Of a DNA stretch of 64,000 bases, positions 32,172 through 47,712 are shown in pieces. The stretch's first letter is position 1; each line of letters starts with the position of its first letter. Below the pieces are notes generated by a model. The model had not been told where the DNA came from and did not search any database. It worked only from the letters and a program-made list of their open reading frames with translations. This DNA comes from Psychroserpens sp. NJDZ02 (GTDB lineage Bacteria > Bacteroidota > Bacteroidia > Flavobacteriales > Flavobacteriaceae), in the NCBI RefSeq assembly GCF_004843725.1, contig NZ_CP039451.1:4036001-4100000 (forward strand), given 5' to 3'. The translations under genes were made by a program, and so were the position numbers.

Positions 32172-35100
32172 TTGAGAAAAATAGAAACTAATTTGAAATA
32201 TTCAAAATCAGTATTAGCCATGCTAATCGGATTTATGTTTAGTTGTTTTACTTTTGCACAAACACAATCTCCTTCAATTCAAACAGGTGTTACATTTCAG
32301 TGGTCAGCCGCGCAACCTAACAACGGAAGTTCTGCGATTATTGAGTCTATCACAATAGACGGTTTGTTATATAATACCTTTGTAGTTCCTACATCCTATG
32401 AAATGACAACATTAGGTCCTGACGGAAATGGTCCTAATAAAATTTATGAAAATGGCGCAACTATAGCTAGTACTAGTGCAGATCCAAATTGGAATAATAA
32501 AGCATTAAGTGCCTTTCAAGATAAAAATTTAAATCATTATTATTCTGCTAATCCAAATGGACGAAATGTATGTGGTAATTTTTCAAGAGCAGAAACTACA
32601 GATGCACAAAGACAAACCATTTTTTATAATGAGCCAATACCTTCCAATGATGGCGGAATTTTAGCCGTTACGGAAAGAGGTGGAAACAACTGTTATTATG
32701 TTGAAATATGGGGTATACCAGTTGGCGGAGGACCAGAACAACAATTAGGTAATACTTTTGTTAGAAACATAGGTGACAACTGGGGGTGTAATTTTGCACC
32801 TCCTATAAATGCTAACTCCGATTATTGGAGATCTGGACGCTGTAACGAAAATGGTCAAACAATTGCCATCGGTTTGTTTTATTTAAACTCCATTGCTCCA
32901 ACTGGTTCTAAAATTACAAAAATCGAATTTGTTGGTGCCACTAGAGATCATGGTGATGGTAAATTTTTCCTTCTTCAAAAATATGCTGTTGATGACGATT
33001 TTGACGAATGTATAGATAACGAAATTAATGGAGATTTAAAGGATGTTGCTAATGTTCCAAATAATTCAACTTTTTCTGTAATTTCTGGCCCCTCACCAGC
33101 AGGACAATCTTTTAATTTAAACGCTAATGGTAATTACACTTACATACCTAATCCTGGTTACACGGGACCAGTAACCTTTGACTATAAGGTTTGCTTACCT
33201 TCTCCAAACCAAGCTGTTTGTGATGAAGCTACTGTGACTATAAATTACCAACCTTTACCTTCTGCGCCGGTTGTAGATATAAGCTGTAATAATAGTAATG
33301 ATACAAATACTATTAATATTACCTCTCCCGTTGGTAGTCAATATACTTACAGTATTAATGGAGGTAGCCCGCAAAATTCAACCACATTTCCTAACTTAGT
33401 TCCTGGAAATTATAATATAAATGTTTATAATACCTTAGGTTGTACTAATGCTTCAACGACAACTATTAATAATGCCTTAGAAATTTCTAATATAGCAATA
33501 TCAAACGCTATTTGTGGCACTGGTAATACTGGAAGCATTGACATCACTGTTGTAGGTGGTACTGCTCCTTATTCTTATGCTTGGAATAATAGTGTTGTAA
33601 CTCAAGATAACAATAATATTCCAGCAGGAAATTATAGCGTTTTAGTTACAGATTTTAATGGCTGCGAGGCTTATATGGACGCTATTATTGTTGATTCGCC
33701 AGACAGTGAAAACCCTGTTATTACAGTACCTTCAACAATAACAATCGAGGGCTGCGAAGCTAATGACATAACAGTTGCTAATTCCGAATTCAATTATGGC
33801 AGTACTAACTCTAATAATGTTCTAAGTACATTCAATACACTTTCTAACTATAATGTCAGTGATGATGTTAATGTACAATCTGTAACTTATATTGATACCA
33901 TAACTTCTACCGCTACTTGTACAACAGTTATAAAAAGAACTTTTACTGTTACAGACGATTGTGGAAATACGGCAACAGCAATTACAAACATAACGATTAA
34001 AGATACTACTGGACCAGATTTAAGTAGTTGCAATCTTATCTCACAAACTAATGAAGAATGCTCTAGTGCTAATAACAATACTATTGTAGACGATTGGAAT
34101 GCTGCTAATATTAGTTTATTACAGAACTGTAGTACGGATAATTGTACTGTATCAGCTAACCTTGTTGTTACATCTAACTACTATTATTCTAATTTTATAA
34201 AGGATTGTGGAACTAGTGGAAGCATAACTGTTACCTATACTGTAAGAGATGAGTGTGATAATACATCTACAACTAGCGCTACTCTGACCATAGAAGATAA
34301 TACGGGACCAGATTTAACTAATTGTGCTACTATAAATAAGACCATTGAATGCAATAGTACTTCAAACCAATCTGAAGCTAATGACTGGAATAATAATAAT
34401 ATTGCAGCTTTAAGAAATTGTGGAACTGACGATTGTGATATAGATTCAACAAATAATGTAACATCAAATTTTAATTTCTCTAATTATGTACCTAACGCAT
34501 GTGGAGGAACTATCGAGGCAGAATACTCTGTAATAGATGATTGTGGGAATATTACTCTTATATCTGGAGTATTTACTATAATTGATACTACTCCTCCTAA
34601 TTTTAATCAAAGCTTACCTGCTGATATAACTGTAACAGTTGATAACATACCAAATACACCAAATATAACAGCATCAGATAATTGTGGTAGTGCCTCTGTT
34701 AACTTTAATGAAACAGAATCTGGAGATGTATGTACTGGAAGCTATACGATTACAAGAACTTGGACTGCAACAGATCAGTGCGATTTAACGACGACGCATA
34801 CACAAATAATAACAGTAACACAGCCTGTTATCTCTGCAACTATAACATCTGTAACAGATGTATTATGTAATAGTGAAGCAACAGGGAGCATTGACATCAC
34901 AGTAACTGGAGGTAAATTACCTTATACATTTATTTGGAATGATGTTACCAATACTAATACTGAAGATTTATCAAATGTATTAGCTGGCGCATATAATGTA
35001 ACCATAACTGATGCTAATGGGTGTACTACCTCTATTGGCGCAACTATTTCTGAACCAACGACTGCTCTTAGTCTAAATATAACTAAAGTAGATGCTACTA

Positions 35101-38100
35101 CAGCACAAGGTTGCTCTAATGGTCAAGCAACAGCCATAGTTTCTGGAGGAACTTCAGGATATACTTACCAATGGAGTACTTCTGCTGGTAGTCAAACAAC
35201 TGCTACTGCTATTGGACTATCTAACGGAACGCACAGTGTAACTATTACGGATGCTAATAATTGTACTATAACTCAAAGTATAGTAATAGAATGTGTTAAT
35301 ACTTGTGATGCCGAAATTGCAATTACTAATGTTAGTGATGTACTTTGTACTGGTGACACAACTGGCGCAGGAACTGTAACCGCTAATTCTGATGCTAATC
35401 CTAGTGCTACTTTCACTTTTACATGGTCGACAGGTCAAGTTAATGCAGGTGTATCAACTAGTACGTTAGCAAGCTTAGCTGCAGGTGTCTATTCTGTAAG
35501 TGTAACAATTGATGGGACAGTTTGTCAAGCTGTTGAGGCAACAATAGCTATTACTGAACCGAGTAACGCGCTTGCCATTACTGCTACAACTACTGACGAA
35601 TTAGGGCCAACAACAAATGATGGGACAGCAACAGCGGTTGTTACTGGAGGTGTTGAACCTTATATCTACTCTTGGTCTCCCGGAGGAGAAACTACTAGTG
35701 CAATCACAGGACTTGCTGCTGGTAATTACACTGTAACAGTAACAGATGCCAATGATTGTATAGATTCAACTACTGTAACTGTTAATCCTGGTACATGTGA
35801 CAATCTATCGGTAACAGGAACTTCTAGCCCAGCGGTTTGTTTTGGAGAAAGTAATGGAAGTGTAACAGCTACTGTAACTGGTGGATCTGGAAACTTTAGC
35901 TATTCTTGGGATACTCTTTCTAATACAACTACATCAGTTAACAATTTATCAGCTGGTGATTATACTATCACAGTTACAGATAATGTAACGCTATGCACTA
36001 CAAATACAACTATAACTATAAACGAACCTAATATTTTAAGTTCTGCAATAGCTGTATCAAACATTTTATGTAAAGGAGATGCTACTGGATCACTAGACTT
36101 AGCAGTTAACGGTGGTAATGGAGCCTATACTTTCTTATGGAGCAATGGTGCAACTACTGAAGATTTAATAAATGTAATAGCAGGAAATTATTCTGTAACT
36201 ATTACGGACTCTAAAGGTTGTGAAACGACAGATTCGGCAACAATTTTAGAACCTGCAACCAATGTTTCTGCTACTATTTCTACACAAACAGATATTGTAT
36301 GTGAAGGTTTAGGCACAATTATAGTAGAAGGTGCGGGAGGTATTGCTCCTTACTCCTATTCTATTGATGGTGGTGTTAACTACCAAACTGATGGCACATT
36401 TGCTAACTTACCTAAAGCTAACTACACAGTAACAGTTGTAGACGCTAATGGATGTACAACAACAGTTACAACAGAAATTCTTATTAACTGTACAGATGCC
36501 ATCACTGATATCAATAACACTTTCCAAGATCTACCAGTAACTGGAAACGTCTTAACTAATGATGAAGATTACGAAGGTGATACTCAAACAGTAACTGAGA
36601 ATACGCAACCTGCTAATGGATCTGTAACTATTGATCCTGCTGGAAACTATACTTATACGCCTAACGCTGGATTTACTGGTGAAGATACTTTCACCTACAC
36701 AATCTGCGATGATGGTAATCCTCAAGCTTGTGATACAGCAACAGTGTATATTGAAGTTTTACTTGTAAGTGGTCCTGGAAACGAAGCGCCTATCGCTAAT
36801 GCCGATACCGCAACTACACCAGAAGGAACTCCTGTAGATATTGTTGTTCTTACTAACGATTTTGATCCTGATGGAGATACAATTACAGTTACTAACACAA
36901 CAACTCCGGATAATGGAATTGTAACCGTAGATCCAACTACTGGTGTAATTACTTACACTCCTAATGATGGGTTTATTGGTGAAGACACATTTACGTATAC
37001 AATATGTGATGATGCTGATCCTGCACTTTGTGATACGGCTACTGTAACGGTAACGGTTCAACCTACGGATTCGCCTAACACAACTAATGCTAATGACGAT
37101 GCATACACTACAACACCTGGTGCTAATATATCTGATAATGTACTATTAAATGACAATGATATTGAAGGTGATAATCAAACAGTAACTGCTAATACTAATC
37201 CAACTAACGGAACAGTAACTATCGCGTCTAATGGTGTCTTTACTTATACGCCTAACTCTGGATTTACTGGTGCCGATTCATTTACATATACTATTTGTGA
37301 TGATAATACTGACCAAGCTTGTGATACTGCAACGGTATATATTACAATTGGTGGTATTGCTAATACAACAGATGCCATCACTGATATCAATAACACTTTC
37401 CAAGATCTACCAGTAACTGGAAACGTTTTAACTAATGATGAAGATTACGAAGGTGATACTCAAACAGTAACTGATAATACACAACCAACTAATGGATCTG
37501 TAACTATTGATTCTGCTGGAAACTATACTTATACGCCTAACTCTGGATTTACTGGTGAAGATACTTTCACCTACACAATCTGCGATGATGGTAATCCTCA
37601 AGCTTGTGATACAGCAACGGTCTATATTGAAGTATTACCTGTAAGTGGTCCTGGAAACGAAGCACCTATCGCTAATGCCGATACGGCAACTACACCAGAA
37701 GGAACTCCTGTAGATATTGTTGTTCTTACTAACGATTTTGATCCTGATGGAGATACAATTACAGTTACTAACACAACAACTCCGGATAATGGAATTGTAA
37801 CCGTAGATCCAACTACAGGTGTAATTACCTACACACCTAATGATGGGTTTATTGGTGAAGACACATTTACGTATACAATATGTGATGATGCTGATCCTGC
37901 ACTTTGTGATACGGCTACTGTAACGGTAACGGTTCAACCTACGGATTCGCCTAACACAACTAATGCTAATGACGATGCATACACTACAACACCTGGTGCT
38001 AATATATCTGATAATGTACTATTAAATGACAATGATATTGAAGGTGATAATCAAACAGTAACTGCTAATACTAATCCAACTAACGGAACAGTAACTATCG

Positions 38101-41100
38101 CGTCTAATGGTGACTTTACTTATACGCCTAACTCTGGATTTACTGGTGCCGATTCATTTACATATACTATTTGTGATGATAATACTGACCAAGCTTGTGA
38201 TACTGCAACGGTATATATTACAATTGGTGGTATTGCTAATACAACAGATGCCATCACTGATATCAATAACACTTTCCAAGATCTACCAGTAACTGGAAAC
38301 GTTTTAACTAATGATGAAGATTACGAAGGTGATACTCAAACAGTAACTGATAATACACAACCAACTAATGGATCTGTAACTATTGATTCTACTGGAAACT
38401 ATACTTATACGCCTAACTCTGGATTTACTGGTGAAGATACTTTCACCTACACAATCTGCGATGATGGTAATCCTCAAGCTTGTGATACAGCAACGGTCTA
38501 TATTGAAGTATTACCTGTAAGTGGTCCTGGAAACGAAGCACCTATCGCTAATGCCGATACGGCAACTACACCAGAAGGAACTCCTGTAGATATTGTTGTT
38601 CTTACTAACGATTTTGATCCTGATGGAGATACAATTACAGTTACTAACACAACAACTCCGGATAATGGAATTGTAACCGTAGATCCAACTACTGGTGTAA
38701 TTACTTACACTCCTAATGATGGGTTTATTGGTGAAGACACATTTACGTATACAATATGTGATGATGCTGATCCTGCACTTTGTGATACAGCTACTGTAAC
38801 GGTAACGGTTCAACCTACGGATTCGCCTAACACAACTAATGCTAATGACGATGCATACACTACAACACCAACAACTTCGGTTATTGATAATGTACTAATT
38901 AATGATAATGATATTGAAGGTGATAATCAATCAGTAACCAGTAATACTGAACCAACCAACGGTACTTTAACTATTGCTCCTAATGGAGACTTTACTTACA
39001 CTCCTAATCCTGGTTTCTCTGGCACTGATTCATTTACATATACTATTTGCGACGATAATACTGACCAAGCTTGTGATACTGCAACGGTATATATTACTAT
39101 AGATGGTGTAGCTGGATTAAACGTCGTGAAATCTGCTATCAATGCTAATGGAAATACCTGTATTGTTGCTGGAGATTTAGTAACATATATATTCACAGTA
39201 ACAAATCCTGGTGATTTACTTATTAACTCTATAACAATTACAGACACTTTATTAGGCGGTGACATTACTGCTGATGTAACTTTGACAGGAGACACCAATA
39301 ACGATGGTTTACTTGATCCTTCTGAAACTTGGGTTTATACAGCTCCAAATTATACAGTAACACAAGAGGACGTTGATGCTGGTGTAATCTCTAACACTGT
39401 TACAATAAGCGGATTAGAGCCTGACGGATTAACAAGCTTAGAAACAAATGATACGTATGTAATTGATGAAAACAACTCAGAATTAAATTTCTGTACTCCA
39501 ACTAATGGTTTAAACATTGTTAAGTCTGCTGAAATAGCAAACGGAGACGCATGTTTAGTAGTTGGTAGCGAAGTAACTTATACCTTCACTGTAACTAATA
39601 CAGGGACTGTATCGGTTAACTCAATAACTATTACTGATGCATTATTAGGTGGTGATATTACTACTGACTTAGTGCTTGCTGGTGATAATAACACCAACGG
39701 TGTGATTGAGCCAACGGAAACTTGGATTTATACTGCTAATAACTATACAGTAACACAAGCTGATGTTGATGCTGGAATTATTACTAACACAGTAACTGTC
39801 GATGGTATCGAAATTCTTGGTAATACAGAGGTGACTGCTACGGATACGTATGTGATTGATGAAAACAATACAGATTTAACATTCTGTACTCCAACTAATG
39901 GTTTAAACATTGTTAAGTCTGCTGAAATTGCAAACGGTGATCTTTGTTTAGTAGTTGGTAGCGAAGTAACATATACATTCACTGTAACTAATACAGGTAC
40001 AGTATCGGTTAACTCAATAACTATTACAGATGCATTATTAGGTGGTGATATTACTACTGCCCTAGTTCTTGCTGGAGATACTAACACTAACGGTGTAATT
40101 GAGCCAACTGAAACTTGGATTTATACTGCTAATAACTACACCGTAACGCAAGCAGATGTTGATGCCGGAATTATTACTAACACAGTAACTGTCGATGGTA
40201 TCGAAATTCTTGGTAATACAGATGTAACTGCTACGGATACATATGTGATTGATGAGAATAATACAGAAGTAATGTTCTGTACGCCTACTAATGGTTTAAA
40301 CATTGTTAAGTCTGCTGAAATTGCAAACGGTGATCTTTGTTTAGTAGTTGGTAGCGAAGTAACCTATACATTCACTGTAACTAATATAGGGACTGTATCG
40401 GTTAACTCAATAACTATTACAGATGCATTATTAGGTGGTAATATTACTTCTGACTTAGTGCTTGCTGGTGATACTAACACTAACGGTGTAATTGAGCCAA
40501 CGGAAACTTGGATCTATACTGCTAATAACTACACCGTAACGCAAGCGGATGTTGATGCTGGTATTATTACTAACACAGTAACTGTGGATGGTATCGAAAT
40601 TCTAGGTAATACAGATGTAAGTGCTACCGATACGTATGTGATTGATGAAAACAATACAGAAGTAACTTTCTGTGATCCTACATTTGGATTAAACATTGTC
40701 AAGTCTGCTGAAATTGCAAACGGAGACGAATGTTTAGTAGTTGGTAGCGAAGTAACTTATACCTTCACTGTAACTAATACAGGGACTGTATCGGTTAACT
40801 CAATAACTATTACTGATGCATTATTAGGTGGTAATATTACTACTGACCTAGTTCTTGCTGGAGATACTAACACTAACGGTGTAATTGAGCCAACTGAAAC
40901 TTGGATTTATACTGCTAATAACTACACCGTAACGCAAGCGGATGTTGATGCTGGTATTATTACTAACACAGTAACTGTGGATGGTATCGAAATTCTAGGT
41001 AATACAGATGTAAGTGCTACGGATACGTATGTGATTGATGAAAATAATACAGAAGTGATGTTCTGTACTCCAACTAATGGTTTAAACATTGTCAAGTCTG

Positions 41101-44100
41101 CTGAAATTGCAAACGGAGACGAATGTTTAGTAGTTGGTAGCGAAGTAACATATACATTCACTGTAACTAATACAGGGACTGTATCGGTTAACTCAATAAC
41201 TATTACAGATGCATTATTAGGTGGTAATATTACTACTGACTTAGTGCTTGCTGGTGATACTAACACTAACGGTGTGATTGAGCCAACGGAAACTTGGATC
41301 TATACTGCTAATAACTACACCGTAACGCAAGCTGATGTTGATGCTGGAATTATTACTAACACAGTAACTGTGGATGGTATCGAAATTCTTGGTAATACAG
41401 AGGTGACTGCTACGGATACATATGTGATTGATGAGAATAATACAGAAGTAACTTTCTGTGATCCTACATTTGGATTAAACATTGTCAAGTCTGCTGAAAT
41501 TGCAAACGGTGATCTTTGTTTAGTAGTTGGTAGCGAAGTAACATATACATTCACTGTAACTAATACAGGGACTGTATCGGTTAACTCAATAACTATTACT
41601 GATGCATTATTAGGTGGTAATATTACTACTGACTTAGTGCTTGCTGGAGATACTAACACCAACGGTGTGATTGAGCCAACTGAAACTTGGATCTATACTG
41701 CTAATAACTACACCGTAACTCAGGCTGATGTTGATGCTGGTATTATTACTAACACAGTAATTGTGGATGGTATCGAAATTCTTGGTAATACAGATGTAAC
41801 TGCTACCGATACGTATGTGATTGATGAAAATAATACAGAAGTAACTTTCTGTGATCCAACTAATGGTTTAAACATTGTTAAGTCTGCTGAAATTGCAAAC
41901 GGAGACGCATGTTTAGTAGTTGGTAGCGAAGTAACCTATACCTTCACTGTAACTAATACAGGTACAGTATCGGTTAACTCAATAACTATTACAGATGCAT
42001 TATTAGGTGGTGATATTACTACTAACCTAGTGCTTGCTGGAGATACTAACACTAACGGTGTCATTGAGCCAACTGAAACTTGGATCTATACTGCTAATAA
42101 CTACACCGTAACTCAGACTGATGTTGATGCTGGAATTATTACCAACACAGTAACTGTGGATGGTATCGAAATTCTTGGTAATACAGAGGTGACTGCTACG
42201 GATACGTATGTGATTGATGAGAACAATACAGAAGTAACTTTCTGTACTCCTACTAGTGGTTTAAACATTGTCAAGTCTGCTGAAATTGCAAACGGTGAGG
42301 AATGTTTAGTACTTGGTAGCGAAGTAACATATACCTTCACTGTAACTAATACAGGTACAGTATCGGTTAACTCAATAACTATTACAGATGCATTATTAGG
42401 TGGTAATATTACTACTGACTTAGTGCTTGCTGGTGATACTAACACTAACGGTGTGATTGAGCCAACGGAAACTTGGATCTATACTGCTAATAACTACACC
42501 GTAACGCAAGCTGATGTTGATGCTGGAATTATTACTAACACAGTAACTGTGAATGGTATCGAAATTCTTGGTAATACAGATGTAACTGCTACGGATACGT
42601 ATGTGATTGATGAGAATAATACAGAAGTAATGTTCTGTACTCCAACTAATGGATTAAACATTGTTAAGTCGGCTGCGATTGCAAACGCTGAGGAATGTTT
42701 AGTACTTGGTAGCGAAGTAACATATACATTCACTGTAACTAATACAGGGACTGTATCGGTTAACTCAATAACTATTACAGATGCATTATTAGGTGGTAAT
42801 ATTACTACTGACTTAGTGCTTGCTGGTGATACTAACACTAACGGTGTGATTGAGCCAACGGAAACTTGGATCTATACTGCTAATAACTACACCGTAACGC
42901 AAGCTGATGTTGATGCTGGAATTATTACTAACACAGTAACTGTGGATGGTATCGAAATTCTTGGTAATACAGAGGTGACTGCTACGGATACATATGTGAT
43001 TGATGAGAATAATACAGAAGTAATGTTCTGTACTCCTACAGCATTACTTAACATTGTTAAAACAGGTGTTTTCAATAATGATAATGCTAACGACTGTACT
43101 GAAGTTGATGAAACAATAACATATACATTCACAGTAACAAACACTGGTACTTTATCACTAGAAAATGTTGTAATAACGGATCCTTTACTAGTTAATGCTG
43201 CAACACCTGTTTCAGTAACATATGTTTCTGGTGATTTAAACAGTAACGATGTTCTAGAGCCTACTGAAACTTGGATTTATACTGCAACGTATTTAGTTAC
43301 ACAATTAGATATTGATGCCACACAAGTTGTAAATACAGCTACTGCAACAGCTACAGTAATTCTAAATGGAGAAACAGTAACAGCTACAGGTGAAACGACT
43401 ACAGAATTAATAGAAGATACCACACCGCCGAATGTTACAACTTGTGCGGTTCTAGATGAAACTATCGAATGTGACGGTGATAATAATGCTTTACTTGCAG
43501 AAACATGGAACGAGACTAATATTACAGCTTTAGAAAATTGTGCAACAGATGCATGTGATAATAATTTTACAGTAACATCTAATTATGACTTTGCTAATTT
43601 AGTATCTACTTGCGGTGCTAGCGGAACAATTGAAGTAGTCTACACATTAACTGATGCAACTGGAAACGCTACTACATTTACCGCTACTGTTAATATAGTA
43701 GATACTACAGGTCCTGAATTAATTACACCTATAGATTTACCAACAAGTGTTATATGTTCTAACGTTCCTGAAATACCTGAATTAATATTTGAAGATAATT
43801 GTTCTATAACTGATGTTGAAGTTGTGTTTGAAGAAACAACAACATTCACTGGATCTGAAGAGATGTACGATATTACATGGACTTGGACAGCAACTGATAA
43901 CTGTGACAATGACACAGTAATTACACATACAATAAATGTGCTTACAGAAAATTTCACAACACCATTAACTGCTGATCGATGTACCGAAGACGGCCTATTA
44001 GATTTATACGAATTCTTACCTGAAGATGCTGACACAGACATCGAATGGGAAGTTGTAACTGATGGAATAACAATCGTTAATGGAATTTTTGACCCTCTTG

Positions 44101-44510
44101 AAGTTGAAATCGGTGATTATGTCTTTACCTACGCAACATTAAATGGAGGATGTTTAAACACCTATGAGTTGACAATTTCTGTTAATGAAGACTGTATTGT
44201 TCTTCCTTGTGGAGAAGATGACTTAAATATATCTAAAGCCGTTACACCAAATGGAGATAGCTATAACGAGTTTTTCACTGTTGGTGGTGTGGAGCAATGT
44301 GGATTTATAATAGACTTAAAAATATTTAACCGTTTTGGTGACATTGTTTTCGAATCTAGAGATTACCAAAATGACTGGAATGGCGAAAGTCCAAGTGGAT
44401 CTGTTGGATCTGCAGGAAGATTACCAAACGGAACATATTATTACGTAATCAATATATTAGATAGTGGAATCAAACCAATAGCTGGTCCTCTTTACTTAGG
44501 AACAAAATAA
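32172..44510 (+). CDS. Giant T9SS type B surface adhesin with SprB-type and tandem Ig-like repeats
   Basis: A 4112-residue secreted protein. The TTG at 32172 gives a complete signal peptide (basic RKIETNLKYSK, hydrophobic core, then TFAQ); the first in-frame ATG at 32220 would lack the basic part. Order: unique N-terminal region to about 275; one cadherin/Ig-like module; an SprB-type repeat at about 443-505; HYR-like modules at about 615-880; seven SprB-type modules at about 890-1435; three 292-residue units at 1441-2314; eleven 131-residue DUF11-like units from 2315 to about 3755; another HYR-like pair; and a gliding-motility-associated C-terminal sorting domain from about 4018 (VTPNGDSYNEFF to the end). 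The protein is Asn/Thr/Asp-rich and poor in Lys and Arg. It is expected to be exported by T9SS and held on the surface by the adjacent SprF-like partner. Ligand unknown. Confidence 0.93.
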   Translation: MRKIETNLKYSKSVLAMLIGFMFSCFTFAQTQSPSIQTGVTFQWSAAQPNNGSSAIIESITIDGLLYNTFVVPTSYEMTTLGPDGNGPNKIYENGATIASTSADPNWNNKALSAFQDKNLNHYYSANPNGRNVCGNFSRAETTDAQRQTIFYNEPIPSNDGGILAVTERGGNNCYYVEIWGIPVGGGPEQQLGNTFVRNIGDNWGCNFAPPINANSDYWRSGRCNENGQTIAIGLFYLNSIAPTGSKITKIEFVGATRDHGDGKFFLLQKYAVDDDFDECIDNEINGDLKDVANVPNNSTFSVISGPSPAGQSFNLNANGNYTYIPNPGYTGPVTFDYKVCLPSPNQAVCDEATVTINYQPLPSAPVVDISCNNSNDTNTINITSPVGSQYTYSINGGSPQNSTTFPNLVPGNYNINVYNTLGCTNASTTTINNALEISNIAISNAICGTGNTGSIDITVVGGTAPYSYAWNNSVVTQDNNNIPAGNYSVLVTDFNGCEAYMDAIIVDSPDSENPVITVPSTITIEGCEANDITVANSEFNYGSTNSNNVLSTFNTLSNYNVSDDVNVQSVTYIDTITSTATCTTVIKRTFTVTDDCGNTATAITNITIKDTTGPDLSSCNLISQTNEECSSANNNTIVDDWNAANISLLQNCSTDNCTVSANLVVTSNYYYSNFIKDCGTSGSITVTYTVRDECDNTSTTSATLTIEDNTGPDLTNCATINKTIECNSTSNQSEANDWNNNNIAALRNCGTDDCDIDSTNNVTSNFNFSNYVPNACGGTIEAEYSVIDDCGNITLISGVFTIIDTTPPNFNQSLPADITVTVDNIPNTPNITASDNCGSASVNFNETESGDVCTGSYTITRTWTATDQCDLTTTHTQIITVTQPVISATITSVTDVLCNSEATGSIDITVTGGKLPYTFIWNDVTNTNTEDLSNVLAGAYNVTITDANGCTTSIGATISEPTTALSLNITKVDATTAQGCSNGQATAIVSGGTSGYTYQWSTSAGSQTTATAIGLSNGTHSVTITDANNCTITQSIVIECVNTCDAEIAITNVSDVLCTGDTTGAGTVTANSDANPSATFTFTWSTGQVNAGVSTSTLASLAAGVYSVSVTIDGTVCQAVEATIAITEPSNALAITATTTDELGPTTNDGTATAVVTGGVEPYIYSWSPGGETTSAITGLAAGNYTVTVTDANDCIDSTTVTVNPGTCDNLSVTGTSSPAVCFGESNGSVTATVTGGSGNFSYSWDTLSNTTTSVNNLSAGDYTITVTDNVTLCTTNTTITINEPNILSSAIAVSNILCKGDATGSLDLAVNGGNGAYTFLWSNGATTEDLINVIAGNYSVTITDSKGCETTDSATILEPATNVSATISTQTDIVCEGLGTIIVEGAGGIAPYSYSIDGGVNYQTDGTFANLPKANYTVTVVDANGCTTTVTTEILINCTDAITDINNTFQDLPVTGNVLTNDEDYEGDTQTVTENTQPANGSVTIDPAGNYTYTPNAGFTGEDTFTYTICDDGNPQACDTATVYIEVLLVSGPGNEAPIANADTATTPEGTPVDIVVLTNDFDPDGDTITVTNTTTPDNGIVTVDPTTGVITYTPNDGFIGEDTFTYTICDDADPALCDTATVTVTVQPTDSPNTTNANDDAYTTTPGANISDNVLLNDNDIEGDNQTVTANTNPTNGTVTIASNGVFTYTPNSGFTGADSFTYTICDDNTDQACDTATVYITIGGIANTTDAITDINNTFQDLPVTGNVLTNDEDYEGDTQTVTDNTQPTNGSVTIDSAGNYTYTPNSGFTGEDTFTYTICDDGNPQACDTATVYIEVLPVSGPGNEAPIANADTATTPEGTPVDIVVLTNDFDPDGDTITVTNTTTPDNGIVTVDPTTGVITYTPNDGFIGEDTFTYTICDDADPALCDTATVTVTVQPTDSPNTTNANDDAYTTTPGANISDNVLLNDNDIEGDNQTVTANTNPTNGTVTIASNGDFTYTPNSGFTGADSFTYTICDDNTDQACDTATVYITIGGIANTTDAITDINNTFQDLPVTGNVLTNDEDYEGDTQTVTDNTQPTNGSVTIDSTGNYTYTPNSGFTGEDTFTYTICDDGNPQACDTATVYIEVLPVSGPGNEAPIANADTATTPEGTPVDIVVLTNDFDPDGDTITVTNTTTPDNGIVTVDPTTGVITYTPNDGFIGEDTFTYTICDDADPALCDTATVTVTVQPTDSPNTTNANDDAYTTTPTTSVIDNVLINDNDIEGDNQSVTSNTEPTNGTLTIAPNGDFTYTPNPGFSGTDSFTYTICDDNTDQACDTATVYITIDGVAGLNVVKSAINANGNTCIVAGDLVTYIFTVTNPGDLLINSITITDTLLGGDITADVTLTGDTNNDGLLDPSETWVYTAPNYTVTQEDVDAGVISNTVTISGLEPDGLTSLETNDTYVIDENNSELNFCTPTNGLNIVKSAEIANGDACLVVGSEVTYTFTVTNTGTVSVNSITITDALLGGDITTDLVLAGDNNTNGVIEPTETWIYTANNYTVTQADVDAGIITNTVTVDGIEILGNTEVTATDTYVIDENNTDLTFCTPTNGLNIVKSAEIANGDLCLVVGSEVTYTFTVTNTGTVSVNSITITDALLGGDITTALVLAGDTNTNGVIEPTETWIYTANNYTVTQADVDAGIITNTVTVDGIEILGNTDVTATDTYVIDENNTEVMFCTPTNGLNIVKSAEIANGDLCLVVGSEVTYTFTVTNIGTVSVNSITITDALLGGNITSDLVLAGDTNTNGVIEPTETWIYTANNYTVTQADVDAGIITNTVTVDGIEILGNTDVSATDTYVIDENNTEVTFCDPTFGLNIVKSAEIANGDECLVVGSEVTYTFTVTNTGTVSVNSITITDALLGGNITTDLVLAGDTNTNGVIEPTETWIYTANNYTVTQADVDAGIITNTVTVDGIEILGNTDVSATDTYVIDENNTEVMFCTPTNGLNIVKSAEIANGDECLVVGSEVTYTFTVTNTGTVSVNSITITDALLGGNITTDLVLAGDTNTNGVIEPTETWIYTANNYTVTQADVDAGIITNTVTVDGIEILGNTEVTATDTYVIDENNTEVTFCDPTFGLNIVKSAEIANGDLCLVVGSEVTYTFTVTNTGTVSVNSITITDALLGGNITTDLVLAGDTNTNGVIEPTETWIYTANNYTVTQADVDAGIITNTVIVDGIEILGNTDVTATDTYVIDENNTEVTFCDPTNGLNIVKSAEIANGDACLVVGSEVTYTFTVTNTGTVSVNSITITDALLGGDITTNLVLAGDTNTNGVIEPTETWIYTANNYTVTQTDVDAGIITNTVTVDGIEILGNTEVTATDTYVIDENNTEVTFCTPTSGLNIVKSAEIANGEECLVLGSEVTYTFTVTNTGTVSVNSITITDALLGGNITTDLVLAGDTNTNGVIEPTETWIYTANNYTVTQADVDAGIITNTVTVNGIEILGNTDVTATDTYVIDENNTEVMFCTPTNGLNIVKSAAIANAEECLVLGSEVTYTFTVTNTGTVSVNSITITDALLGGNITTDLVLAGDTNTNGVIEPTETWIYTANNYTVTQADVDAGIITNTVTVDGIEILGNTEVTATDTYVIDENNTEVMFCTPTALLNIVKTGVFNNDNANDCTEVDETITYTFTVTNTGTLSLENVVITDPLLVNAATPVSVTYVSGDLNSNDVLEPTETWIYTATYLVTQLDIDATQVVNTATATATVILNGETVTATGETTTELIEDTTPPNVTTCAVLDETIECDGDNNALLAETWNETNITALENCATDACDNNFTVTSNYDFANLVSTCGASGTIEVVYTLTDATGNATTFTATVNIVDTTGPELITPIDLPTSVICSNVPEIPELIFEDNCSITDVEVVFEETTTFTGSEEMYDITWTWTATDNCDNDTVITHTINVLTENFTTPLTADRCTEDGLLDLYEFLPEDADTDIEWEVVTDGITIVNGIFDPLEVEIGDYVFTYATLNGGCLNTYELTISVNEDCIVLPCGEDDLNISKAVTPNGDSYNEFFTVGGVEQCGFIIDLKIFNRFGDIVFESRDYQNDWNGESPSGSVGSAGRLPNGTYYYVINILDSGIKPIAGPLYLGTK
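36492..39113 (+). repeat. Three tandem 876-bp coding repeats
   Basis: Copies start at 36492, 37368 and 38244, exactly 876 nt (292 codons) apart. Each encodes three Ig/cadherin-like modules beginning TDAITDINNTFQDL, APIANADTATTPEG and NANDDAYTTTP, each with a YTPNxGFxGxDxFTYTICDD core. The third copy diverges in its last module. Copies differ at scattered, mostly silent sites. Confidence 0.97.
39114..43430 (+). repeat. Eleven tandem 393-bp coding repeats (DUF11-like modules)
   Basis: Unit starts are 39114, 39507, 39900, 40293, 40686, 41079, 41472, 41865, 42258, 42651 and 43044, all exactly 393 nt apart (131 codons). The unit reads GLNIVKSAEIANG, CLVVGSEVTYTFTVTN, ITITDALLGG, NGVIEPTETWIYTANNY, VTQADVDAGIITNTVTVDG and TDTYVIDENN. 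Units 2-10 are nearly identical in DNA; the first and last are diverged. Each unit has one Cys near its start and units 1-10 a second near the end. The end of the last unit is approximate. Confidence 0.97.
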
Positions 44511-44519
44511 AAACTATAG

Positions 44520-45467
44520 ATGAAAAAAATAAAAATATATAGTATTGGAGTTATATTACTGTTTAGCTGCTTAAATGCATTAGCCCAACAGTTACCCCAA
44601 TTTTCTCAATACATGTTTAACACTATTGCTATTAATCCTGCCTATGCAGGAAGTAGAGAAACCATTAGTATAGTTGGTTTACATAGAAGTCAATGGGTTG
44701 GATTGGCAGGAGCACCGACCACTTCTACCGTGTCTATTCATGCACCTATGAAAAATGAAAAAGTGGGATTAGGACTATCAGTCATCAACGACGAGTTAGG
44801 CTTTGAAAACTTTGTCTATGCATACGGAGACTTTTCATACACTATTAACTTATCCGAAAAAACTAAATTAGCATTTGGGTTAAAAGCCGGCTTTACACAT
44901 TATAATTTGGATCAAGAAGGTTTTTTAGATGATCCTACAATATCTGTAGATCCTTTCTTTAGTAACTTTACTAATAAATGGAATCCTAACATTGGTGTTG
45001 GTGCATACTTACATCAAAATAAATGGTATGTTGGTTTATCTGCCCCAAGAATATTAAATACAGACTATAATGAAAGTTCTTTAGACCCTGAAGTTGACTA
45101 TGTTGCTTTAGAACGTGTTGGATACTACCTAACCGGAGGTTATGTTTTTGATTTAGATGAAAACACAAAACTTAAACCTTCTGCTTTAGTTAAAGTAACT
45201 AATGGTGCTCCAATTTCATTTGACCTGAGCGCTCATGTTCTATTTAACGAAACATTTTGGTTAGGGGGAAGTTATAGATATAACCGAGATACTTCTACCA
45301 TTGGAGCTTTAGCAGATTTTCAAGTATCTCCACAAATGAGAATTGGTTATGCTTACGAACATTATATTACAGACCTGAGACCATATACAGGCGGAACACA
45401 TGAAATACTATTAATGTTTGAAGTTTTCAAACCTACAAAACGTGTAAAATCACCTAGATATTTTTAA
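44520..45467 (+). CDS. PorP/SprF family type IX secretion system membrane protein
   Basis: A 315-residue outer-membrane protein with a signal peptide ending LNALAQ, then the family signature QLPQFSQYMFNTIAINPAYAGSRE and repeated beta-strand segments (SIVGLHRSQWVGLAGAPTT, GLGLSVINDELGFEN, YGDFSYTINLSEKTKLAFGLKAGF), ending in a barrel-type Phe. SprF-like proteins are partners that attach or export a specific type B T9SS cargo encoded next to them, as SprF for SprB. It begins 9 nt after the giant adhesin stop and ends 1 nt before the OmpA-family gene. Confidence 0.92.
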   Translation: MKKIKIYSIGVILLFSCLNALAQQLPQFSQYMFNTIAINPAYAGSRETISIVGLHRSQWVGLAGAPTTSTVSIHAPMKNEKVGLGLSVINDELGFENFVYAYGDFSYTINLSEKTKLAFGLKAGFTHYNLDQEGFLDDPTISVDPFFSNFTNKWNPNIGVGAYLHQNKWYVGLSAPRILNTDYNESSLDPEVDYVALERVGYYLTGGYVFDLDENTKLKPSALVKVTNGAPISFDLSAHVLFNETFWLGGSYRYNRDTSTIGALADFQVSPQMRIGYAYEHYITDLRPYTGGTHEILLMFEVFKPTKRVKSPRYF

Positions 45468-45468
45468 A

Positions 45469-47421
45469 ATGAAAATAAAAATAATTTCTTACATTCTACT
45501 TGCATTGTTTATGCAGCAAGCTGTTGCTCAAACAAAAGTAGCTGATAATTTTTTCAGAGACTTTTCTTATGAAAAGGCAGCCGAACTATATAAAGAAGCC
45601 TTAAAAAAAGAAGATAGCACTGAATACATCCTGAAAAGAATAGGAGACAGTTACTTTAATATTAGTAAAGTTGAGAAAGCTGAATTCTGGTATGGTAAAG
45701 CCATTGAAAAATATCCTTCCATTGATACTGAATACATCTATAAATATGTACAAACACTAAGAAGCCAAAAAAAATACGATTTGGCTAATCAATATTTAAG
45801 AGATTTTAAATTAAAAAACAACAAGGATAAACGTATTAAGGATATTGATATTTTTAATATTGAAAATTATAATCAGCTTACCAACACTGAAAAAGTATAT
45901 GTAAATATAGAAAACCTGCCATTAAACACTAGTTATTCTGATTTTGGTGGATATGAATACAAAAACACACTATACTACTACTCTACTTGGGTTAAAGACT
46001 CTATAGTTGACGAAAAAGATTTGTATGATTGGAATAATGAGCCATTTCTTAATATTTTCCAATCTGAAACAAAAATAGAAAAAGAAAAAGAAACTAAAAC
46101 ATATGGAGAACCTACAAAATTAAACTCCACTGTAAATACTTTGGATGATCACGAAGGGCTAGTAGCTATTACTAATGATGGTCAAACCATGTATTTTACA
46201 AGAAACAATGTTTCTAAAAAAGACAGACGTAGATATTCAAAAGAAGGAACTTCCAATTTAAAAATATATAAATCTACATTATTAGAGAATAAATGGACCA
46301 ATGTAACCGAATTACCGTTTAACGATGCTGCCTATTCTTGTGGAGCACCCGCTTTAAGCCCAGATAACAAAACGTTATATTTTGTATCGGATATGGACGG
46401 CGGTTTTGGTCAAACAGATCTTTATAAAGTCACCATCAAAGAAGATGGTACTTACGGCAAACCTAACAATCTAGGAGCAGAAATTAACACAGAAGGAAAC
46501 GAGAAATTTCCATTTGTAGCTAAAGATTCAACATTGTACTTTTCAAGTGATGCAAATTTAAATTTAGGATTACTTGATATATTTGAAACTAATCTGCTTA
46601 AAATTAAAAAAAATGATTCAACCGAAGTATATATTAAAAATCTAGGCGCCCCATTTAATAGTCCTTTTGATGATTTTTGTTTCTTTATAGATTCTGAATC
46701 ACAAACTGGTTATTTTTCTTCCAATCGTGAAGGCGGAAAAGGAGGAGACGATATTTATGCTTTTGGTAAATATCAATGTAAACAAATTGTTTCTGGTGTT
46801 GCTTATAATAAATTATCTGGAGAACCACTATCTAAAGTAAGTGTATCATTATTAGATATAAACGGAAAAGTTATAGAGACTTATTTTACTGACAAAGATG
46901 GTAAATATGAATTTACGGGTATCGGGTGTGATAAAACTTATACGATATTAGGAGAACGTGTTATTTACAGACCTGACAAAAAAGGATTTTTAACCTCTCC
47001 TATTGATGGAGAAACAACTACAATAGATCTTTATTTAGACCCTTTAATTATAGAGAACGAAATAGTTATCAATCCTATCTATTTTGATTACGATAAATCC
47101 TTTATTAGAGCTGATGCCGCTTACGAATTAGAAAACGTAGTAGCTGTAATGAGAGAACATCCAAAAATGATTATTAAAATTGAATCACATACGGACAGTC
47201 GTGGACGTGATGCTTATAATTTAAAATTATCAGACCGTCGTGCTAAATCTACACGAGACTATTTATACTCACGCGGCATTGAAAACAGCAGAATACAAAG
47301 TGCAATTGGTTATGGTGAAACACAAATACTAAACCAATGTACTAATGGCGTAAAATGTACAGACAAAGAACATGAGGAAAATAGGCGATCTAAGTTTATT
47401 ATAACAAATCAATATAAATAG
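45469..47421 (+). CDS. OmpA family protein with TPR, PD40 and carboxypeptidase-like domains
   Basis: A 650-residue envelope protein: signal peptide ending QQAVAQ, TPR-like helices at about 25-120, WD40-like PD40 beta-propeller repeats at about 185-420 (ALSPDNKTLYFVSDMDGGFGQTDLYK, GYFSSNREGGKGGDDIYAF), a carboxypeptidase regulatory-like domain at about 440-510, and a C-terminal OmpA peptidoglycan-binding domain (IYFDYDKSFIRADA, IESHTDSRGRDAYN, LSDRRAKSTRDYL). This is the architecture of T9SS-associated proteins such as PorE, and of genes next to SprB/SprF. It probably anchors the adhesin-SprF complex to peptidoglycan. It closes the three-gene operon and precedes a terminator. Confidence 0.9.
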   Translation: MKIKIISYILLALFMQQAVAQTKVADNFFRDFSYEKAAELYKEALKKEDSTEYILKRIGDSYFNISKVEKAEFWYGKAIEKYPSIDTEYIYKYVQTLRSQKKYDLANQYLRDFKLKNNKDKRIKDIDIFNIENYNQLTNTEKVYVNIENLPLNTSYSDFGGYEYKNTLYYYSTWVKDSIVDEKDLYDWNNEPFLNIFQSETKIEKEKETKTYGEPTKLNSTVNTLDDHEGLVAITNDGQTMYFTRNNVSKKDRRRYSKEGTSNLKIYKSTLLENKWTNVTELPFNDAAYSCGAPALSPDNKTLYFVSDMDGGFGQTDLYKVTIKEDGTYGKPNNLGAEINTEGNEKFPFVAKDSTLYFSSDANLNLGLLDIFETNLLKIKKNDSTEVYIKNLGAPFNSPFDDFCFFIDSESQTGYFSSNREGGKGGDDIYAFGKYQCKQIVSGVAYNKLSGEPLSKVSVSLLDINGKVIETYFTDKDGKYEFTGIGCDKTYTILGERVIYRPDKKGFLTSPIDGETTTIDLYLDPLIIENEIVINPIYFDYDKSFIRADAAYELENVVAVMREHPKMIIKIESHTDSRGRDAYNLKLSDRRAKSTRDYLYSRGIENSRIQSAIGYGETQILNQCTNGVKCTDKEHEENRRSKFIITNQYK

Positions 47422-47425
47422 TAAT

Positions 47426-47459
47426 AAAAAAGCCTTTCTAAATTCAGAAAGGCTTTTTT
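47426..47459 (+). terminator. Intrinsic terminator of the adhesin operon
   Basis: A 14-bp perfect stem (AAAAAAGCCTTTCT / AGAAAGGCTTTTTT) with a 6-nt loop, starting 5 nt after the OmpA-family stop codon. Confidence 0.88.
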
Positions 47460-47666
47460 ATTACAAAACGGTAAACGACTTAAAGGAAACTATCCACCTT
47501 GCGATACAGTCCATCACAAGCTATTCTAATAACAAGAATGTCTCTCATTTGTTTATACCGCTATAAGTAAGCTTATAATACACAGAACTAGTACTTAAAA
47601 TTAAGAATCTACCTGTTTGCCTATAAACCCTTTTGTCTGAAATGAAAAGCAACAAGATAATAACAA
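47460..47666. other. Non-coding interval between two terminators
   Basis: About 200 nt enclosed by two strong hairpins in a convergent gap that needs only one. No long reading frame is present; a 22-codon minus-strand frame at 47480-47548 has no support. It could hold a small RNA or be a remnant. No exact -7 promoter box was seen. Confidence 0.4.
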
Positions 47667-47712
47667 AAATCAAAAACCTGAACAATTCATGTATTGTTCA
47701 GGTTTTTGATTT
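47667..47712. terminator. Second hairpin terminator upstream of the CAP gene 3' end
   Basis: A 19-bp perfect stem (AAATCAAAAACCTGAACAA and complement) with loop TTCATGTA. The gene at 47757 on the minus strand ends 45 nt away, so it is the most likely client. Confidence 0.8.

Follow-up and report, generated by a model that had tools for sequence, protein, structure and literature searches.

Does a giant surface adhesin travel with the gliding machinery of its cell, or is it held in place? The question is raised by a locus in a 64,000-nucleotide stretch of the genome of the marine bacterium Psychroserpens sp. NJDZ02 (contig NZ_CP039451.1, positions 4,036,001 to 4,100,000; hereafter the window), where three genes on the forward (+) strand, separated by 9 bases and 1 base, encode a 4112-residue adhesin, a 315-residue carrier of the PorP/SprF family and a 650-residue TPR/PD40/OmpA protein. 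We consider it likely that this operon specifies a statically anchored type B fibrillar adhesin of the type IX secretion system (T9SS) with an anchoring module of its own. A preliminary description had recognised one operon of three genes, for a T9SS type B adhesin, a carrier of its own and an anchor of the OmpA family, with gaps within 10 nt and within 2 nt, and the open reading frames (ORFs), domains and measured gaps agree with it.

The type B assignment comes from the C-terminus of the adhesin, where CHU_C scores 64.6 bits at residues 4019-4102 (Pfam cut-off 27) and TIGR04131 scores 37.4 (NCBIfam cut-off 35), while the hydrophobic N-terminus looks by eye like a signal peptide within residues 1-29. 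The second protein belongs to the PorP_SprF family (PF11751, 281.2 bits, cut-off 22.3; TIGR03519, 264.5, cut-off 90.55). Its single cysteine lies in the signal peptide; the mature part is cysteine-free, ends in SPRYF and does not carry the Cys-X-Cys of the periplasmic C-terminal tail by which SprF is recognised. That tail bonds SprF to GldK of the gliding track and is required for movement, not for display (PMC12635249). The third protein, here called PorE-like, has the order TPR, propeller, carboxypeptidase-regulatory-like and OmpA, which is the four-domain order of PorE (PMC7192894); PD40 and OmpA lie above the Pfam cut-offs, TPR and CarboxypepD_reg below theirs. Its OmpA domain aligns to the PorE structure 6TOP at 1.3e-17, and Asp576, Asn584 and Arg591, with which PorE contacts peptidoglycan (PMC7192894), recur in that alignment with the same residues and spacing.

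Such an arrangement has precedents. A PorE-PorP-PG1035 complex was found in Porphyromonas gingivalis, and in the model proposed by Gorasia et al. mobile type B proteins rely solely on the carrier, whereas a PorE-like protein fastens the non-mobile ones to the wall (PMC9143113). In Flavobacterium johnsoniae, Fjoh_3952, encoded with the carrier Fjoh_3951 and the PorE-like Fjoh_3950, forms static foci only (PMC12618676). The operon of the window fits as a further case of this already described static, PorE-anchored adhesin class, so that the earlier suggestion of an undescribed filament is not supported; the genome contains six type B-carrier-PorE-like operons (L001-L006, L004 being that of the window).

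In such an anchored system the adhesin would leave the cytoplasm by Sec and presumably cross the outer membrane through SprA. The SprA, GldJ and GldK genes are present in the genome, and therefore T9SS export, and perhaps gliding, seems to be available to the cell. The sorting domain would be collected by the adjacently encoded carrier, which would remain bound as the outer-membrane anchor, as has been shown experimentally for members of the family. Unlinked to the moving GldK track, the carrier may instead associate with the PorE-like protein, whose OmpA domain would grip peptidoglycan and thereby fix the fibre. The N-terminal head would form the outer tip, because the sorting domain sits at the C-terminus, and its binding to a surface ligand could attach the cell to particles, algae or other cells.

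The relation between carrier tail and neighbouring gene was surveyed in 148 carriers of 39 Flavobacteriaceae genomes, each of a different genus, with the own genome included. Forty genomes had been searched, with about 270 PF11751 matches by a hand sum, and G015 contributed none of the carriers. These are not a random sample but a selection by rank and class (10 from the own genome, 29 loci with the best PF11751 match per genome, 30 with the best SprF-like match per genome and 80 picked by hand), and one locus with a fused PorP whose frame runs off the locus was dropped (L009; 149 to 148). A PorE-like neighbour accompanies 70/148 carriers, none of which has Cys-X-Cys (0/70), and a Cys-X-Cys tail occurs in 57/148, without a PorE-like neighbour in any (0/57), where absence means no profile match within 400 bases downstream. 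The remaining 21 carriers show neither feature, and five of them have a single tail cysteine. A FastTree phylogeny divides the carriers into two deep clades, one of 65 members (57 with Cys-X-Cys) and one of 83 (70 with a PorE-like neighbour), with a long-branch warning exactly where the two join. The C-terminus PR[FYW][FYW] is found in 81 of the 83 carriers of the non-Cys clade, to which the carrier of the window belongs.

Outside the family the pattern is different. Sixty-eight loci were collected, of which 15 were dropped (weak or no match) and nine scored loci lay in the family of the window; in the 44 carriers scored outside it, Cys-X-Cys was absent (0/44), a cysteine within the last 32 residues occurred in 22, and a PR[FYW][FYW] ending was seen in nine, seven of these with a PorE-like neighbour. 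Seven outside carriers (L273, L275, L295, L309, L319, L323 and L326) terminate in a CPxF motif whose single cysteine might play the part of the lone cysteine in P. gingivalis PorG.

From the family survey we tentatively put forward that the last residues of the carriers form a two-address code, with Cys-X-Cys directing the carrier to the moving GldK track and PR[FY][FY], perhaps a docking peptide, to the PorE-like wall anchor; we see this as possible, with the balance somewhat against it. If such a code exists, sequence could distinguish mobile from fixed behaviour for every type B adhesin in the family, and the widespread unnamed head described below would be the tip of one fixed class. The analysis shifts the case away from gliding and towards static adhesion anchored to the wall, and it offers a sequence rule, open to testing, that predicts the type B adhesins expected to move. 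The comparison of tail and neighbour was not found in print by a literature search largely without subscription papers and entirely without bioRxiv preprints; in the sections available, PorE goes unmentioned in PMC12635249, as do disulfides in PMC12618676.

Adhesins and their adjoining carriers also seem to have diverged together. Distances between sorting domains and between carriers are correlated over 115 pairs (r 0.84), partly reflecting shared ancestry across genomes, and remain so inside the non-Cys clade (r 0.76) and over eight pairs of this genome (r 0.93), with 0/1000 permutations as high in each case. The sorting domain of the window shares no more than 38% identity with the seven others compared from its own genome; in F. 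johnsoniae, carriers could serve each other's cargo when these cargo proteins were 68% alike, but not at 43% or 26% (PMC12618676). Taken with the six such operons in one genome, the correlation suggests that each adhesin and its adjoining carrier are a dedicated pair.

The head domain, which has no Pfam name in a scan of the adhesin, had been described as unusual and unique. A search found relatives encoded in 83 genome-contig stretches, the head of Olleya being 79% identical, and hence the domain proves to be conserved across many relatives. It occurs in many Flavobacteriaceae, both on giant adhesins with differing stalks and sorting domains and as a stand-alone protein. The alignment comprises 43 of the 79 fetched head loci plus the window, and the AF2 model has a mean pLDDT of 93.9. 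The head is probably a binding domain for a surface ligand, which may be a glycan, and as a conserved, unnamed domain common to giant adhesins of many Flavobacteriaceae it offers a concrete target for ligand screening.

Stand-alone head proteins of 377-406 residues were found in seven genomes (L238 and L240-L245; for instance L244:972-2869). They consist of a signal-peptide-like start, the head and one Big_9-like module, end near SGNA.GPLLQN and have no sorting domain. Each of the seven genes is followed by a same-strand frame of 234-266 residues; the frame in L244 carries VGIGTT and matched nothing in Pfam or NCBIfam. Proteins related to the stand-alone head and of similar size number 132, full and partial (120 among the matches listed). 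Head-bearing type B adhesins, mostly of about 1160 residues, were also observed in L250, L251 and 13 genome-contig loci (e.g. L052 and L062), where no carrier gene was found next downstream; they may be orphan substrates that have one carrier in common, a situation described for three proteins of F. johnsoniae (PMC12618676). Free shuffling of the head between carriers was considered and rejected, since 7/8 head-bearing operons fall in one carrier group.

The stalk differs among relatives at the same chromosomal site. Like the window, 36 of the 79 fetched head loci (genome contigs) have SixA, Ppk and Ppx genes immediately upstream, and PdxH lies downstream in L037, L039, L060 and L249 (the last may be the same genome as L060). 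PdxH was not found in L023 and L043 within about 1.6 and 2.5 kb beyond the PorE-like gene, and most other contigs end sooner. At this site eight type B adhesins are complete, L022 and L043 having been excluded for masked stretches in the gene, and they range from 1372 to 3314 residues; a carrier ending in PR[FY]F stands behind each, followed by a PorE-like gene in 7/8 (the L046 locus ends early). Five of the eight were scanned with Pfam and have HYR_4C stalks, with no match to Big_9 or DUF7507 at E <= 1e-5. Contigs of Olleya and Lacinutrix at the same site also contain DUF7507 units before the contig end. Relatives at this site thus retain head, sorting domain and carrier with other stalks. 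Their shorter and different stalks make that of the 4112-residue adhesin look lengthened or exchanged in place.

Pfam identifies 11 DUF7507, 10 Big_9 and six SprB repeat domains in the stalk, which bears out the long DUF11-like and cadherin-like arrays reported earlier; Ig-like repeats make up about 2,300 stalk residues. The three 292-residue units of the cadherin-like array are 92-98% identical in DNA, and units 2-10 of the eleven 131-residue DUF7507 units are 91-96% identical, their codon differences being mostly synonymous (577 synonymous and 272 non-synonymous, summed over all pairs). DUF7507, renamed CLIPPER_2, has predicted intramolecular Lys-Asp-Asn isopeptide bonds (PMC12617251). The three bond positions are retained in 11/11 units of the adhesin. 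Other head proteins gave 112 units, of which 77 have every one of the three columns filled and 74 of these read K-D-N; a predicted model of one unit of the adhesin has a mean pLDDT of 91.3. These residues make Lys-Asn isopeptide locks probable in the 11 domains.

The same evidence bears on other explanations of the operon. A gliding adhesin of SprB-SprF type, moved along the GldJ/GldK/GldN track, would account for the carrier family, the sorting-domain type, the SprB repeats and the gliding-track genes of the genome, and the preliminary description had drawn this analogy. The cysteine-free mature carrier with its place in the non-Cys clade and the PorE-like gene inside the operon argue against it. 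Moreover, two other PorP/SprF proteins of this genome (L007 and L008) do have Cys-X-Cys tails, and the L008 carrier gene is preceded by a 4626-residue type B protein, with a 968-residue PorP-fused protein and a 487-residue CHU_C protein nearby, at about 3.73-3.75 Mb. The gliding adhesin locus has the gene order SprC-SprD-SprB-SprF, which we take the region at 3.73-3.75 Mb to resemble, so that it is presumably an SprB/SprF-like candidate; no SprC/SprD-type neighbours were seen among the window genes and flanks beside the operon. Because the mature carrier is without cysteine and an SprB/SprF-like locus lies elsewhere, the operon does not appear to be an SprB-SprF gliding pair, and we judge this explanation very improbable. 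As a separate observation, the 968-residue protein (L332:1347-4253, about 3.75 Mb) has an N-terminal PorP/SprF domain, adjoins the CHU_C protein near the SprB-like gene, and continues into a long extension that, where scanned, gave no Pfam match; similar long PorP frames exist in other genomes.

It is also conceivable that the set mainly serves the T9SS machine, with carrier and PorE-like protein acting as core PorP/PorE as in P. gingivalis and the adhesin as passenger or cap. The shared four-domain order and the proposal that PorP-PorE-PG1035 anchors the PorK/N rings (PMC9143113) are in line with this, but six such operons in a genome, with sorting domains correlated with carriers, point to dedicated pairs, and the idea seems quite unlikely. 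A filament for cell-cell interaction or predation, its head recognising prey or kin, agrees with the head at the tip and the adhesive domain types. Nevertheless, the Pfam scan of the adhesin gave no toxin or enzyme domain above cut-off, the head also stands alone and on other stalks in many Flavobacteriaceae, and nothing found here points to the predation that had been envisaged; we give it a very small probability.

Static anchoring thus remains the preferred explanation, and several observations weigh against it or against the tail rule. SprF without its cysteines retains residual contact with the track (PMC12635249), so some movement is possible. The PorE-like protein scores 316.8 bits against the NCBIfam PorE model NF052230 (cut-off 600), and by eye it has no lipobox, with no cysteine near the signal cleavage region, whereas P. 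gingivalis PorE is a lipoprotein (PMC7192894); the name PorE-like was chosen for these two reasons. The predicted head fold gives a weak galactose-binding/CBM32-like match at the edge of noise. In the survey, the split of tail and neighbour is one deep division, not repeated independent evidence: support from independent contrasts was sought and rejected, as only three independent pairs lie on starred branches and the neighbour differs in 0/3, and the mutual exclusion of Cys-X-Cys and PorE-like neighbour may hence be one ancient event. Outside the family, a PorE-like neighbour also accompanies 4 of the 22 carriers whose last 32 residues include a cysteine; together with the lack of Cys-X-Cys there, this led us to reject a phylum-wide rule.

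The features of the operon are collected in Table 1. The closing terminator reported earlier corresponds to a 20-pair hairpin, which rests on its stem and place alone as terminator-like sites in the region are at chance level (8 found, 7.6 expected). A second 20-pair hairpin, terminator-like on both strands, lies at 47667-47712 between the operon and a CAP-domain gene. The flanking genes appear by eye to be ordinary housekeeping genes.

Table 1. Positions of the adhesin operon and its parts in the window.
Feature	Position	Strand	Basis
Giant adhesin, 4112 aa, TTG start	32172..44510	+	ORF call, Pfam, NCBIfam; open frame 4117 aa in genome
Signal-peptide-like N-terminus, residues 1-29	32172..32258	+	Read by eye
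Conserved head domain, residues 30 to about 279	32259..33008	+	83 related stretches; AF2 model
Big_9-like module directly after head	33009..33269	+	By eye here; Pfam on stand-alone head protein L244
Stalk segment, SprB repeats and HYR-like	33282..36497	+	Pfam: SprB x6; HYR_4C under its cut-off
Big_9/tandem-95 (cadherin-like) array, three 292-residue units	36498..39116	+	Pfam, NCBIfam, repeat comparison
DUF7507 (CLIPPER_2) array, eleven 131-residue units	39117..43439	+	Pfam, repeat alignment; Lys/Asp/Asn kept 11/11
HYR-like segment ahead of sorting domain	43440..44225	+	By eye
Type B sorting domain (CHU_C/TIGR04131) and stop	44226..44510	+	Pfam, NCBIfam
PorP/SprF-family carrier, 315 aa, ends SPRYF	44520..45467	+	Pfam, NCBIfam, tail comparison
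PorE-like protein, 650 aa: TPR, PD40 propeller, CarboxypepD_reg, OmpA	45469..47421	+	Pfam, NCBIfam, 6TOP alignment
OmpA-like, putative peptidoglycan-binding domain of PorE-like protein	47080..47352	+	Pfam; PorE 6TOP Asp/Asn/Arg conserved
Terminator-like hairpin, 20 pairs, end of operon	47421..47464	.	Hairpin scan

Among known systems, SprB-SprF (PMC12635249) shares with the window the carrier family, type B sorting and a giant repeat adhesin with SprB repeats, but the carrier of the window is without the Cys-X-Cys tail, has a PorE-like partner and is encoded at another locus. The CLIPPER/CLIPPER_2 (DUF11/DUF7507) fibrillar adhesins likewise have tandem DUF7507 domains with the Lys-Asp-Asn set, and CHU_C, in which the adhesin of the window also ends, is among the sorting domains named for them (PMC12617251); in the adhesin of the window the isopeptide bonds are predicted. 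PG1035-PorP-PorE of P. gingivalis likewise joins a type B protein, seated on a PorP barrel, to a PorE that binds peptidoglycan, whereas the cargo of the window is a giant fibre and its PorE-like protein stays below the PorE cut-off, without a lipobox by eye. Fjoh_3952-Fjoh_3951-Fjoh_3950 of F. johnsoniae, as described (PMC12618676), is like the window in having the genes for a type B adhesin, its own PorP/SprF carrier and a PorE-like protein in one operon.

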